This document shows positions 25,811 to 31,923 of a DNA stretch of 61,596 bases, in pieces; position 1 is the stretch's first letter; the number at the start of each line of letters is the position of its first letter. Source of the DNA: a bacterium (lineage in GTDB: Bacteria; T1Sed10-126); NCBI GenBank assembly GCA_003554945.1, contig PWHN01000110.1, forward strand, positions 1 to 61,596, written 5' to 3'. The notes beneath the pieces were generated by a model. The model saw only the letters and a list, made by a program, of their open reading frames with translations. It had not been told where the DNA came from and searched no databases. The translations under genes were made by a program, and so were the position numbers.

Positions 25811-26061
25811 GGTGCTTAGTCACAATTGAATTTTTGGTTTGTCATTTGACGTCATTGTCCAACTTGATTGGACAATCCAGTGGCTTTGGTGTTGACGTTG
25901 ACCGTAAAACCGTTTAAATTCAACTTCACTGGATTCCCGCTTCCGTGGGAATGACAAGCAAGGGCGGAGAGCCGCTGGATTCCCGCTTCCGCGGGAATGA
26001 TAACCGAAAAACGGTTAAAAGTGTGGTCACATTTTCGACTGTGACTGAGCAATAGGGGCGC
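25811..26061 (+). repeat. Inverted-repeat-bounded segment with two GGATTCCCGC...GGGAATGA hairpins
   Basis: GGTGCTTAGTCACAATTG near 25811 is roughly inverted near 26040-26056 (GTGACTGAGCAATAGG). Inside are two short hairpins of the form TGGATTCCCGCTTCCGTGGGAATGAC (shown here only as 5' TGGATTCCCGC and 3' GGGAATGA), at about 25929-25953 and 25977-26001. They share the GGATT/AATGA ends of the other modules. This fills most of the nadC-26101 gap; no gene is visible. Confidence 0.65.
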
Positions 26062-26100: not shown

Positions 26101-26439
26101 ATGGAAAACTCTAGTGAAGTAGTGGCCGAAATAAGTGTAATTCCAGTAGGTACCGGAAATCCGGACATATCAAGTTTTGTCCGCCGTTGTATTCAGATTG
26201 CTCATCTTTCTGAGCTTCGTTTTAATGAAACACCCTTTGGCGCCGTTGTATTTGGTCCGCTGCGCGAAGTAATACTCCTTGCCGAAAAAATGCATAAAGC
26301 GCCCTTCGAGCAGGGAGCAAGCCGTGTTCGAACTACAGTTGTTATTGATGAATATAAGGATGGAGAAGAGGAGCTAACTCTAAGGGAAGCGGCGGAGGCC
26401 CGGGAGCTGTCGCTTGGCGGGGAGTTTTTTCAACCTTGA
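26101..26439 (+). CDS. MTH1187/YkoF-type thiamine-binding-like protein
   Basis: 112-residue protein of the DUF77 (MTH1187) family, small ferredoxin-like cytoplasmic proteins that form tetramers and, in studied members, bind thiamine or related small molecules. Family features: VVAEISVIPVGTGNPDISSFVRRC at the start (split here: strand then IPVGTGNPDIS), ETPFGAVVFGP in the middle, and KMHKAPFEQGASRVRTTVVID, where the G..R....i.ID pattern is conserved. Length is typical. Start ATG 26101. The stop overlaps the next start (TTGA). The ligand is not known here. Confidence 0.85.
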   Translation: MENSSEVVAEISVIPVGTGNPDISSFVRRCIQIAHLSELRFNETPFGAVVFGPLREVILLAEKMHKAPFEQGASRVRTTVVIDEYKDGEEELTLREAAEARELSLGGEFFQP

Positions 26440-26960
26440 ATGAAAACTTATCAGAAAACCAGAGTTTACGTTCTCTATCCGCTGAGGATTTAGAACTGTT
26501 TTGTCGCTTTTTACTTGATCTTGCCGATGACCGTCGAAATTTTCTGATTGATTTTCTTTCTCGCGAGGCACCACAGTTTATTCGCCGCTTTGATGAAAGT
26601 CTTCCTTCCCTGCAGAAAATGACAGAACTGTCCCCCCGTTTTGCGCAAAAACTGCTTCAGGAGACCTCTTTTGATACGCTCGGCTGGGTGCTATATGGAG
26701 CCGACCGGGATGTGGTACAGTTTTGCGGTGAAAATTTAAGTAAACGTGGGAGGCAGATTCTTTATGAGGAAGTGGAGAAGGTTCGAGCGTTGCGCCGGCG
26801 CTGGCGGGAAAATGAGCGAGGAGAGGAAAAATTTAGGGCTAAAAAAAAGGACAAGACTTTAGATTTCAAATTACAGCTTCAGGTAAGTCTGGCGAATACG
26901 GGGGCAAAAAAAGATGAAACCCCCGGAAGCCAGGCGGCTTCCGGGGATAGAAATACTTAG
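26436..26960 (+). CDS. FliG C-terminal-like domain protein
   Basis: 174 residues, mostly helical. Residues about 75-125 (LGWVLYGADRDVVQFCGENLSKRGRQILYEE) resemble the C-terminal torque-generating domain of the flagellar switch protein FliG (pattern: al.ga.......f..nms.R....l.e.), but the N and middle domains of FliG are missing and there are no flagellar genes nearby. It may be an orphan relative with another role. The TTG start overlaps the previous stop. The last 20 or so codons include a perfect 11-bp hairpin (26921-26946) that looks like the terminator of the convergent histone gene. Confidence 0.6.
   Translation: MNENLSENQSLRSLSAEDLELFCRFLLDLADDRRNFLIDFLSREAPQFIRRFDESLPSLQKMTELSPRFAQKLLQETSFDTLGWVLYGADRDVVQFCGENLSKRGRQILYEEVEKVRALRRRWRENERGEEKFRAKKKDKTLDFKLQLQVSLANTGAKKDETPGSQAASGDRNT
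26906..26946 (-). terminator. Probable terminator of the histone gene, inside the end of the opposite gene
   Basis: CCCCGGAAGCC and GGCTTCCGGGG form a perfect 11-bp stem with a 4-base loop (26921-26946). Read on the minus strand it lies 20 bases after the histone stop codon and is followed by GTTTCATC and then a run of seven T. The T run is some bases away from the stem, so efficiency is uncertain. Confidence 0.6.
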
Positions 26961-26966
26961 ATAATT

Positions 26967-27140
26967 TTACAGATCCTCAGGTCTTACGGTCTTGCGACCA
27001 TTGGCCTGAGCCCGTTTGGCAGCCTCGTCCAGCAGAGCGGCCAGCTTGTCGCCGGCAGCGGCCGGAAGATCGCTGTCACAGAGCAACCCCTTATCACTGA
27101 TTAGCTCCTTCACACGACTTTTGTATACTAAGTCGGCCAT
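26967..27140 (-). CDS. Bacterial histone-fold protein (single short histone)
   Basis: A 57-residue gene. Translation gives an N-terminal helix around KSRVKELISDKG (residues 7-18), a long central helix (about 24-47; LPAAAGDKLAALLDEAAKRA) and the end NGRKTVRPEDL (47-57). Archaeal histones end helix 2 and loop 2 in the same way (HAGRKTIKAEDI), and R49 and D56 have the spacing of the Arg-Asp clamp of the histone fold. Known bacterial histones, such as Bdellovibrio Bd0055, are about this size and close with RKTV...DL. It likely binds DNA as a dimer. Net charge is near zero, unusual for DNA binding but in keeping with this acidic proteome. AAAGGAGGGAG lies seven bases before ATG 27140. Confidence 0.85.
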   Translation of the reverse strand: MADLVYKSRVKELISDKGLLCDSDLPAAAGDKLAALLDEAAKRAQANGRKTVRPEDL

Positions 27141-27497
27141 AACACACTCCCTCCTTTCCGCGCTTAAGTTCCACTTACATTAAAAGTTCAATAGTTTAGC
27201 TTTTTACAAACCACTTTTGAAATCAGGTCATATTGTAAAATCGCTTTTCCTGCCCGTCAAAGGGTTTGTTAGGCAGTTACTGCTAATAACCATATAATTA
27301 TCTCTCACTCTTGCCAAGGGTTTTATGGGGTAATTGGCTAATTTTATTCAAATCAATCAACTCTGGCACCTTAATTTGGCGGTTTTAACGGAAAAGTTCC
27401 GGTATATTTCTTAATTTTCACGTCAAACCGGTCGAAAATAAAAAATGGACCTCAAAACTATCAATCTGGACAATTGTTCCATTCAAGGGGGCTAACA
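27141..27497. other. AT-rich intergenic region between divergent genes
   Basis: 357 bases between the histone gene (minus) and the ACT-domain gene (plus). It should carry both promoters. I see no reliable -35/-10 pair, no repeat module and no small gene. The sequence is clearly more AT-rich than the surrounding coding DNA. Confidence 0.5.
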
Positions 27498-28155: not shown

Positions 28156-29343
28156 TTAGAGCTTGTTAATCCCCGAGATAGTCTTTAGCGGCGAGAGAAT
28201 CCAGGGGCGCAGGTCAGGGTGCTGAATTTTAAGATAGGCACTTAAAAAGCAGAGCCCGGGGAAGAGGAGTAAGGTCCCAATAACTCCAAAAGAAGCCCAG
28301 AGTAGTGCCAGTCCAAGGATTAAAACCTCCAGCCCAAAGTCCCACTCCTTGCTTGTGCCCGAGCCAATCCAGTTTAGAAAATAAGGTTTTATCAGGTAGT
28401 CGTCGGTTATAAAGTAGAAAAAGAAAATAATTGCGGTAACAGCTCCTCCCACAACACCCTGCCAGATTGTCAGCAATCCGATAGTTAAAATTGTAAGAAT
28501 TATAGTTCCCACCCCGGGAACGACAAGATTACCGAGAAAAAAGGAGAGAATAAGACCAAGAATGATTTTATTCTCAAAATGAGTAATTCCCGCCTGATTC
28601 AACCCGAAGAAAATTCCCGTCATAATTAACCCCAGGATCATGTAATAGATAGAGTTATAGAACAGACACTGCTGAAAGAGACGGCTGTATGAGTTGATGA
28701 TTTTTGATTGCCTGCTATCGTCTTTTTCCACCCAGGCAATTAACTCTTCCAGTGACTCGTAGATAAGTGCGCCTATACCTGTGAAGATTATAAAAGTTAA
28801 AGGAAGGATAAATGTAGAAAAGAAGCGATTCAAACTACCAAAAATTTCCTGTGCATTATCGGCCAGAACCGCATAGGGGTTAGGATTGAAGGCCAGTTCG
28901 TTGAGGAAATTGTAAGCTTCTGGAGCCGCGGTCTGGAATAGGCTGCGAATCCAGCCCTGTACGGCCGGGTTCCGGACCGTTTCAAAAAACAGTGGGGCAA
29001 GCAGCCAGCCGAAGACAAGCAAACAGAAAAGGGCGAATGATTGAATGACACAGGGAACTACGCCCCAGGAACGGAGAGGCAGTATTGTCTCAAAGGTGCG
29101 AAGGAAAAAATTGCGAATACTGTCCGGCAGGATCTTGCGGATAAAGCGTTGAAAAGGTGCTGTCCATCTCTCCCAGAGGTTAACCAGGAAAATGCTATAA
29201 AAAAGCCCCAGCAAGCTTACCGCCAGTATTTCTCGGAACTGGCGGCTAAAAAAGAGGGGGATAAAGAGAATAACAAGGGGAATAATGACAGCCACATCCA
29301 GGAAACGTCTCCCCTGGCTGGCTGAATTATCTTCCGTGGACAT
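28156..29343 (-). CDS. AI-2E/PerM-like membrane permease
   Basis: 395 residues with about eight hydrophobic helices. The C-terminal half (FFLGNLVVPGVGTIILTIL, GVVGGAVTAIIFFFYF, DDYLIKPYFLNW, then SFGVIGTLLLFPGLCF) follows the pattern of the AI-2E exporter family (PerM/UPF0118): n..P..G.......l......g.....a.....y...d....P...G......G..G.....P. The N-terminal half is less typical. Substrate cannot be told; members include exporters and Na+/H+ antiporters. It starts one base inside the stop of the long upstream gene (TAATG), so the two are translationally coupled. Confidence 0.65.
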   Translation of the reverse strand: MSTEDNSASQGRRFLDVAVIIPLVILFIPLFFSRQFREILAVSLLGLFYSIFLVNLWERWTAPFQRFIRKILPDSIRNFFLRTFETILPLRSWGVVPCVIQSFALFCLLVFGWLLAPLFFETVRNPAVQGWIRSLFQTAAPEAYNFLNELAFNPNPYAVLADNAQEIFGSLNRFFSTFILPLTFIIFTGIGALIYESLEELIAWVEKDDSRQSKIINSYSRLFQQCLFYNSIYYMILGLIMTGIFFGLNQAGITHFENKIILGLILSFFLGNLVVPGVGTIILTILTIGLLTIWQGVVGGAVTAIIFFFYFITDDYLIKPYFLNWIGSGTSKEWDFGLEVLILGLALLWASFGVIGTLLLFPGLCFLSAYLKIQHPDLRPWILSPLKTISGINKL

Positions 29344-31841
29344 TAGTTACTCCACTCCTCTAACAGTTGTTCGGACTCTTTTCGTGTCTCGGCCAGCAAA
29401 CCGGCGAGAGGCTCTGCAGTTGTTGTTTCCTCAAGATTTTTGAGAAAATCCTTCCATTGTTCCAGCATATCCTCACCGGTCAGACGTCCGCCCCAGCCGC
29501 GCAGCCACTGGCCACTGGTTTGTTCATGAATTTCTGAGGCTTTTTCTATAATAAGTTCGTGTAATTCTGGTAGCTGCGCCAGTTCCCAACGGTAGTCGTA
29601 GTCGTCAGGAAGTGGGTCAAATTCCTTCGGTGTGGTAAGCTCTTCAAAGCGTCTGTATTGCTCATCTCCCCGCAGCAGTCCCCCGGCCGTGATTTCGGCT
29701 GCTACGAGACGAAGTTCATTAATAGTTTTCCGTAGTTCTAACAAGTTTTTATAACTTTCTCCCTCAAAATGAAGTTCAAGAATATCGGCCGTTGCGAGCT
29801 TGTCCAGGGAACTGTTGAGTGATTGAGCTGCTTCAATTAGACGGTTTTCCTCCAGGTCCGTCTCCTCGGGGTGTGAAACAAAGTGTTTGAAAGAGCGTAG
29901 GTAAACGGCAAGGATATTTTCAAAATCAGTAGTTAATCGTTGCAGAGCTGCATCGCCTATGCGGCTGTCGGGGAGTTGCTGCTGCCACTCCACAAACAGG
30001 CCGACCAGTTCATTCAAACGTTCCGGATTAAAAGTTGTTCGCGTCGCCTGAATATCTTTTACAATTTCCTTGAGTTTTTCCCTGTGATCTTCGATCTGCT
30101 GATCTACACTCTCGCCAAATTTTTGATGAATATTACTTTCTTCACTTCGTATTTCTTCGAGATAGATGGCGGCTATCAATAATTCCTCTGGCCGGTCCGC
30201 CAGTTGATCAGGCAGATCATCAAGGGCCAGTAGCTCCTCCAGTTTAGCGGTCAGCGGCGCAGTTAACTCGCTGAACTGAGGGCTGTCCATTATTGCCAGA
30301 ATATCTTCTTCCAGTTGTTGAAGCCGGCGAGTTTCCAGTGCCAGCCGTGTCTCCTGCACCCAGGTTTCTCCAAAGTTATCGAGGGCGAGCTCAGTTGCAG
30401 TTTCACTGATAGTTTCAATCAGGGATAGGTAAGGCTCGCGAGGTTCATCCTCAGCCGGCTGCCAGTCAACTGAAGTGATGAGGTCACGGTTGGCTTCAAA
30501 AAAACCAGCAACCATTATTCCCCAGCCCTGGTTTTTATCGGCCAATTGATGTTCGTTAAGTTCAATTAATTTTTCCCTCAAACCTTCATAATTTTGCTGA
30601 CCTATTAAAGCTTCAAGTTGTTCTGCAATATAATTGATTTCGCTTAGCAGCTGTTCTTTAGCTTCAAATTTAGAGTGTCCTCCCGGTAGTCGGACAAGCC
30701 CTTCCTGCAGGGCTTCTATGCGCTCGTTCGGTGCCTCAAAATCTGGTTCATATTGATTTCGTAATTTGACTTCATGATAGAGTCTACTCAATTTATCAGA
30801 CAAAGTCTCCCGCAGCTTCTCGGTCGCTTCAATAACCAGTAACTCCTCAGCTTCACTTTTATCAACAATCATGCGTTCTATGTCGGTCAACGCAAGCAGC
30901 TCCTCCTCAAGGGCGCCCGCCAGTGGATCAGCAAAGTCTTTGACTTCCGGCTCAAATTCGTTTAACAGTGAGGCATATAACTCCCTGCTGCCCTCGGCCA
31001 GGCGTTCGCGTGCCACCTGATGAACTTCCGGCAAATTTTCAAAGTTTTCCCACGGGGGGGCTGCCAGAGAGCCGGCTGTTACCTCGTTAAGAGTTGCATA
31101 GGATCTGATCAGCCGTGGGAGAAGCTGGACATATTCGGGGAAGTTACCGGCGTCACTGGAGGTTGGAGCCGGCAATGTTCTAAAATAGCGCTCCACCCGT
31201 GAGGCTGTTAGGGTAACTGATTCTTTAAACGGCTCACTGCAGTCGGTTTGAAATAGGCTCTGACAGTCTAACCTGGGGCTGTAAATTAGTTCGTAATCGT
31301 TGATTGCACGTTGCACTATTTCAGTCGCTTCAAGGTAGGAGCTTAAACCCCGTGTCGGATGGTCGGGGAGGTTTAAAACCCGGACGATTCGATCCCAGTC
31401 CTTAATCAGCTCCTCTCTCACCTGGTGATGGCGCGGAAATAAGCGCTCGACCAGCGCTGAAGTGAGCAGATTCAGATAAGCTTCGCGTACCTCATCAACC
31501 TCAATTTCTTCCAACTCTATCCCAAGATTTCCTACCAGGGATCGGTGCAGATTGAAAATAACGGACTGCAGACGTTCTCGCTCGGTTTCCGATAGCTCCT
31601 CCCGCGCCTGTAGCTGTGTGAAAAAACTGCGTAACTCGTTAATCCGACCCGCCCGGGGAGTCTGTTCGTCGAATTGCAGCACAATGTTCTCGGCTTCTGT
31701 GATTGGATCTCCAAGAAAGTCTCGGAACTGTTCAGCTATCGGCTCGCGATAGAGGTAGAGTAGGGAGGAGAGCAATACAACAGGCAAAATTATTAATAAA
31801 AAATTAACAACTGCCGCCCACAGGCGTCCAAATAATTTCAT
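29343..31841 (-). CDS. Large helical membrane-anchored protein, unrecognised
   Basis: 832 residues. One N-terminal transmembrane helix (about 8-30, AVVNFLLIILPVVLLSSLLY) is followed by some 800 residues that are almost entirely helical, rich in Glu, Leu and Arg, with frequent heptads and few Cys. This suggests a long extracytoplasmic or periplasmic helical bundle or coiled coil. I recognise no family. Start ATG 31841 follows AGGAGG at seven bases, better than the upstream frame start at 31859. Coupled to the AI-2E-like gene, it could form an envelope-spanning accessory to that transporter; this is inference. The pair is bounded by related repeats. Confidence 0.75.
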   Translation of the reverse strand: MKLFGRLWAAVVNFLLIILPVVLLSSLLYLYREPIAEQFRDFLGDPITEAENIVLQFDEQTPRAGRINELRSFFTQLQAREELSETERERLQSVIFNLHRSLVGNLGIELEEIEVDEVREAYLNLLTSALVERLFPRHHQVREELIKDWDRIVRVLNLPDHPTRGLSSYLEATEIVQRAINDYELIYSPRLDCQSLFQTDCSEPFKESVTLTASRVERYFRTLPAPTSSDAGNFPEYVQLLPRLIRSYATLNEVTAGSLAAPPWENFENLPEVHQVARERLAEGSRELYASLLNEFEPEVKDFADPLAGALEEELLALTDIERMIVDKSEAEELLVIEATEKLRETLSDKLSRLYHEVKLRNQYEPDFEAPNERIEALQEGLVRLPGGHSKFEAKEQLLSEINYIAEQLEALIGQQNYEGLREKLIELNEHQLADKNQGWGIMVAGFFEANRDLITSVDWQPAEDEPREPYLSLIETISETATELALDNFGETWVQETRLALETRRLQQLEEDILAIMDSPQFSELTAPLTAKLEELLALDDLPDQLADRPEELLIAAIYLEEIRSEESNIHQKFGESVDQQIEDHREKLKEIVKDIQATRTTFNPERLNELVGLFVEWQQQLPDSRIGDAALQRLTTDFENILAVYLRSFKHFVSHPEETDLEENRLIEAAQSLNSSLDKLATADILELHFEGESYKNLLELRKTINELRLVAAEITAGGLLRGDEQYRRFEELTTPKEFDPLPDDYDYRWELAQLPELHELIIEKASEIHEQTSGQWLRGWGGRLTGEDMLEQWKDFLKNLEETTTAEPLAGLLAETRKESEQLLEEWSN

Positions 31842-31923
31842 TTTTTTCCTCCTAATCATATTTTATCAAGTTTTTTGAAATAGCAATACCATCAGCGATC
31901 GGATCACAGATTCTTTCACCAAA

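Follow-up and report, generated by a model that had tools for sequence, protein, structure and literature searches.

A reading frame of 57 codons and a stop on the minus strand of a bacterial contig (positions 26967-27140) raises the question of whether it encodes a genuine histone and, if so, how that histone would engage DNA. The frame lies in the window, by which we mean the whole 61,596-nucleotide stretch analysed here, and its program-made translation is MADLVYKSRVKELISDKGLLCDSDLPAAAGDKLAALLDEAAKRAQANGRKTVRPEDL. The lineage, T1Sed10-126, is the same as Candidatus Busufiota, a phylum described from two genomes of 2.15-2.2 Mb and 46.12-48.13% GC in hypersaline soda-lake sediment (PMC11382960). 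The window fits this phylum, its GC content of 48.6% (one contig) being slightly over that range, and it probably originates from a soda lake. Literature naming T1Sed10 or Busufiota yielded no histone paper by title, and the supplementary tables of histone surveys may list the protein. Homology, modeling and analogy with solved structures together point, with a probability of about 0.8, to a face-to-face (FtF) alpha3 histone that is predicted to act beside HU as a DNA-wrapping homotetramer.

Gene signals and genomic setting

The gene, placed in the FtF class on the basis of sequence and predicted structure, is flanked by recognizable expression signals. A Shine-Dalgarno sequence, AAGGAGG, occupies positions 27150-27156 (minus strand), 9 nt before the histone ATG, and GCGAAAGGAGG is found ahead of the histone gene in the sister genome also. 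A putative sigma-70-like promoter, TTGACG-17-TACAAT (27232-27260, minus strand), was recognized by its consensus match (10/12) and outranks the three other promoter-like sites of this strand between 26800 and 27500. The promoter block CCCTTTGACG recurs upstream in the sister, 220 nt before the ATG compared with 120 nt in the window. Beyond the stop codon, a candidate intrinsic terminator (26919-26948, minus strand) combines a 13-pair stem with a T-rich tail and has a predicted stability of -26.5 kcal/mol (z -5.88); the sister gene is followed directly 3' by a different hairpin-like repeat and a T run, as read by eye. The original prediction had claimed a complete 57-residue histone-fold gene with a good ribosome binding site and a likely terminator, and the translation, homologues, predicted structure and these signals agree with it. 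No mark of high expression is seen in the codon usage: the histone scores below all 42 window ORFs, on a measure in which 25 ribosomal-region ORFs barely differ from the rest.

Genes for UvrB, NadC, a thiamine-binding-type protein, a short FliG_C protein and an ACT protein neighbor the histone gene. The sister genome, which represents another genus (contig PWOD01000193.1, bacterium isolate CSSed10_354m), keeps the order nadC-histone-ACT in identical relative orientation, with uvrB adjoining nadC. Both genomes examined for the phylum carry a histone orthologue. The two histones are 88% identical, compared with 48% for NadC, 50% for ACT and 70% for UvrB (a C-terminal piece of 159 columns), which makes the histone the most conserved of the four proteins. 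The codon differences comprise 20 synonymous and 7 non-synonymous changes, giving a dN of about 0.07, a dS of 0.56-0.93 by three methods and a dN/dS of about 0.1. As judged from this sequence comparison, the gene is under purifying selection.

Several other features of the region were recorded. The short FliG_C protein (26436-26960, plus strand; 174 aa) contains the FliG C-terminal domain only (33.3 bits), and the final codons of its gene pass through the histone terminator hairpin. Neither this gene nor the thiamine-binding-type gene is present in the nadC-histone interval of the sister. Two 29-nt direct repeats, spaced 46 nt start to start, lie between nadC and the thiamine-binding-type gene (25929-26003) and are presumably REP-like. 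At 28156-31859 (minus strand), two adjacent genes of 395 and 838 codons have no Pfam match above cut-off.

Fold, family and relatives

The AlphaFold2 monomer model, built from a 30-row alignment (pLDDT 88.3, pTM 0.59) and replacing a weaker one from 6 rows (pLDDT 71.1), contains two helices (residues 2-15 and 25-46) followed by a three-residue turn at 54-56. FtF histones are described as having an alpha2 that is 4-5 residues shorter than that of nucleosomal histones; helix alpha2 spans 22 residues in this protein, the one measured. The helical residues 54-56 give an alpha3 within the three to four residues that characterize FtF histones. A minimal histone fold with a long second helix had been foreseen, and both of these elements are seen in the model; the monomer model shows no strands, however, and its third helix is just one short turn. 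Sequence and model together confirm one histone fold whose alpha3 is a single turn. The top Foldseek match, and the sole one with an E value under 0.001, is the Leptospira perolatii histone HLp (TM 0.84, rmsd 0.7 Å, E 5.8e-4), followed by HTkC of Thermococcus kodakarensis and HBb of Bdellovibrio bacteriovorus. Z scores from VIA are effectively tied (HLp 7.0, HBb 6.8, HTkC 6.5) and do not separate the classes.

Curated family models do not reach their cut-offs with this protein. Pfam PF00808 scores 17 bits against a gathering threshold of 21.4, PF09123 (DUF1931) scores 14.3 against 21.8 over profile positions 27-53 of 138, and the NCBIfam histone model scores 14.8 against 50. Searches of the PDB were far more productive, both with the single sequence (HLp 3.2e-8, HTkC 1.6e-4, HBb 0.02-0.03) and with a 30-row profile (HLp 2.1e-19, HTkC 6.4e-17, HBb about 2e-16). 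The proposed check with histone and DUF1931 profiles consequently fails on curated models alone but succeeds by way of closer relatives, which indicates that curated cut-offs can miss such histones. Two other histone architectures were ruled out. A DUF1931 pseudodimer carries two folds per chain, whereas the 57 residues here hold one, and PF09123 stays below its cut-off; a nucleosomal HMf-type histone has an alpha3 of about 10 residues, whereas this chain ends at residue 57, one turn past loop 2. At E values up to 1, nothing matched in the defence and phage family libraries, nor did tblastn of the window histone find a match in plasmid and phage collections.

Of 386 genomes searched with profile A4, 34 contain relatives, as do 27 of the 339 high-quality ones, counts that include the window's own genome, the sister and other members of the profile. 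The alignment of 57 rows comprises the window histone, 53 loci (L004, L005 and L007-L057) and three PDB stretches, cut to the parts aligned in the single-sequence PDB search; L003 and L006 were omitted because they duplicate L008 and L055. The patterns used to gather the relatives contain GRKTVRP and a KRA stretch, so the C-terminal conservation in this alignment is in part a product of how its rows were chosen. Start codons of the relatives were assigned by a crude rule, by which L046 and L050 are probably three residues short, and long alternative starts in the Peribacteria rows were trimmed to MSYVV. Two rows, L056 and L057, are histone relatives encoded on IMG/VR viral contigs, with identities of 38% and 37%. 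Identical histones occur in two Peribacteria MAGs and in one genome labelled Euryarchaeota (ARS80; L017, L018 and L019), perhaps reflecting a mislabelled or mixed bin. In a tree of the 57 rows (52 different, 58 columns), the sister pair is the sole supported grouping that includes the window histone (100/99), and no support attaches to the forks that would link it with archaea or with other bacteria. HLp joins another bacterial row (97/90) rather than the window histone, and HBb joins yet another (88/92).

Residue signature and charge

FtF histones are defined by a predicted tetramer in PMC11390915, which names R41, N45, R47, T49, D54 and K11 of Haloferax volcanii D4GZE0; these correspond to R43, N47, R49, T51, D56 and K11 of the window histone. 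The RxTxxxxD motif is present as R49-K-T51-VRPE-D56, and Arg49 and Asp56 indeed have the clamp spacing that had been pointed out. For the dimer-dimer contact, the FtF profile has R48 and N52, which appear here as R43 and N47 (codons 43-47, 27000-27014, minus strand; roles from the literature), and the conserved alpha1 lysine, K16 of the profile, appears as K11. Codons 49-57 (26970-26996, minus strand) specify the RD clamp, loop-2 K50 and T51, and the C-terminal L57 of the expected tetramer contact, roles that we take from PMC11390915 and PMC12701072. The tetramer residues reported for HLp, namely R49, S52, N53, R55, T61 and F63 (PMC12701072), align without gaps to R43, A46, N47, R49, E55 and L57, the last through a one-residue extension. 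Asparagine at the N47 place is no strict tetramer marker, since HTkC, a crystal-proven tetramer, has Glu there. Bacterial dimer histones are reported to lack both the tetramer Arg and the Asn (PMC11390915). The original prediction invoked DNA bending or end-on filaments; its histone fold stands, but the residues are those of the FtF class exemplified by HLp and HTkC and not those of the dimer class of HBb, which makes wrapping likelier than either mode.

HLp wraps about 60 bp of DNA and contacts it through A13, S14, K15, K17, K21, T27, G29, T56 and T57 (PMC12701072). The aligned residues are K7, S8, R9, K11, S15, C21, S23, K50 and T51, of which four are positive and none is negative, and both genomes of the phylum retain K7, R9, K11 and K50 on the face expected to meet DNA. 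The HLp contact lysine K21 is replaced by Ser15 in the window histone and is Lys15 in the sister, and T27 is replaced by Cys21. Loop 1 carries D22 in the window and sister histones only; the other 55 of the 57 rows have Ser (40) or Ala (15). In HLp, the loop-1 residues M26 and S28 touch T56 and V58 in loop 2 of the partner chain (PMC12701072). D22, which occupies the place of S28, could by analogy pair with K50 of the partner.

The near-zero charge ascribed to this protein within an acidic proteome is real: 10 Lys/Arg residues balance 10 Asp/Glu residues, and 42 crude window ORFs of at least 100 aa have a median pI of 4.88. It is nonetheless less singular than first supposed. Five haloarchaeal plasmid FtF histones, fetched from 47 matching plasmid records, carry net charges of -6 to -8, and the three HU homologues of the window genome carry 0, -2 and +4 (HU start codons chosen by eye). 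Thus, a neutral charge fits the acidic proteome and is in itself no argument against DNA binding. Among 48 unique relatives, the sister included, the median net charge is +3 (range 0 to +8), with 13 of the 48 at +1 or less, so that the window histone sits between most of its bacterial relatives and the acidic haloarchaeal FtF histones. This charge series would allow salt adaptation of histone-DNA wrapping to be tested. HU is encoded in three copies in the window genome and two in the sister, together with one detected histone per genome. Since HU is also available, DNA packing need not fall mainly to the histone; HU alongside histones has already been reported for Bdellovibrio (PMC12701072).

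Candidate roles and comparison with known histones

By analogy with HLp and HTkC, two dimers would join into the torus-shaped ring of an FtF tetramer, held together by R43, N47, R49 and the C-terminal end. A positive rim formed by K7, R9, K11, loop 1 and loop-2 K50 and T51 might then take up about 60 bp of wrapped DNA, largely irrespective of sequence. In the cell, the protein would be one nucleoid-associated protein beside HU, with acidic residues off the DNA face possibly tuning it to a salty cytoplasm. A more specific and still tentative proposal, which we hold to be doubtful, is that, in a halophilic candidate phylum, this tail-less, neutral FtF histone serves as a major chromatin protein next to three HU paralogues. 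Its remodeled loop 1, in which D22 would lie opposite the partner's K50 (HLp has S28 close to T56 at this place), would make dimer and DNA contacts salt-dependent.

Other readings can be set against the wrapping tetramer. The protein might have the histone fold yet no general role in DNA packing, acting instead as a low-abundance architectural or regulatory factor. The net charge of 0, the Ser at the HLp K21 contact place, the acidic D22 in loop 1, the presence of HU and the absence of a codon bias for expression are all compatible with such a role, but we consider it unlikely. The haloarchaeal plasmid FtF histones are far more acidic, and the chromosomal FtF histones of H. volcanii and Halobacterium salinarum are reported to be among the 2% most highly expressed genes in three transcriptome datasets out of four (PMC11390915). 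Moreover, both genomes retain the four basic residues of the presumed DNA-binding face, and the promoter-like site and Shine-Dalgarno sequence are good. A histone like HBb, bending DNA as a dimer or coating it end-on, would have the same fold (VIA Z 6.8 compared with 7.0 for HLp) and the truncated alpha3 common to both classes. Such a dimer is less probable still, as R43 and N47 are present here where HBb has Ser and Asp, and the single-sequence match to HBb is far weaker than that to HLp.

The presence of Diapherotrites archaea (up to 54% identity) beside Peregrinibacteria (up to 57%) among the best relatives outside the phylum could suggest archaeal contamination, but we give contamination or a chance open frame next to no credence. 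The gene sits within a 61.6-kb contig that carries uvrB, nadC, cheR and gyrA- and gyrB-type genes, and the separate-genus sister with its nadC-histone-ACT order, together with purifying selection, speaks against both origins. The PDB homologue at 3.2e-8 and the 88% identical orthologue of a second genus, with the same flanking nadC and ACT genes, likewise mark the histone as more than chance.

The window histone is an otherwise normal member of the recently described FtF family, and it places that family in a little-known, probably hypersaline soda-lake phylum, where it is a short bacterial histone under strong conservation, encoded beside HU. It resembles HLp (PDB 9QT0-9QT2), a bacterial FtF histone, in its fold and in the R/N/R/T/D signature, with a gapless alignment across 53 residues. 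It differs in lacking an N-terminal tail, in having CDSD rather than TSGD in loop 1, and in carrying Ser15 for K21 and K50 for T56. Furthermore, its genome encodes HU, whereas two Leptospira species are reported to be without HU or Dps (PMC12701072). The archaeal FtF histone HTkC (PDB 9F2C) is likewise tail-less and has the FtF fold (TM 0.79, 36% identity), but with Glu in place of N47. HBb (PDB 8CMP/8FVX), a bacterial dimer, has a short alpha3 and the RD clamp in common with the window histone (PMC11390915, PMC10627809), but not the tetramer Arg and Asn. The five plasmid-borne haloarchaeal FtF histones, at 55 aa, are also tail-less, come from a salty habitat and carry the R-N-R-T-D signature, yet they are strongly acidic where the window histone is neutral and have two fewer residues between alpha1 and loop 1.
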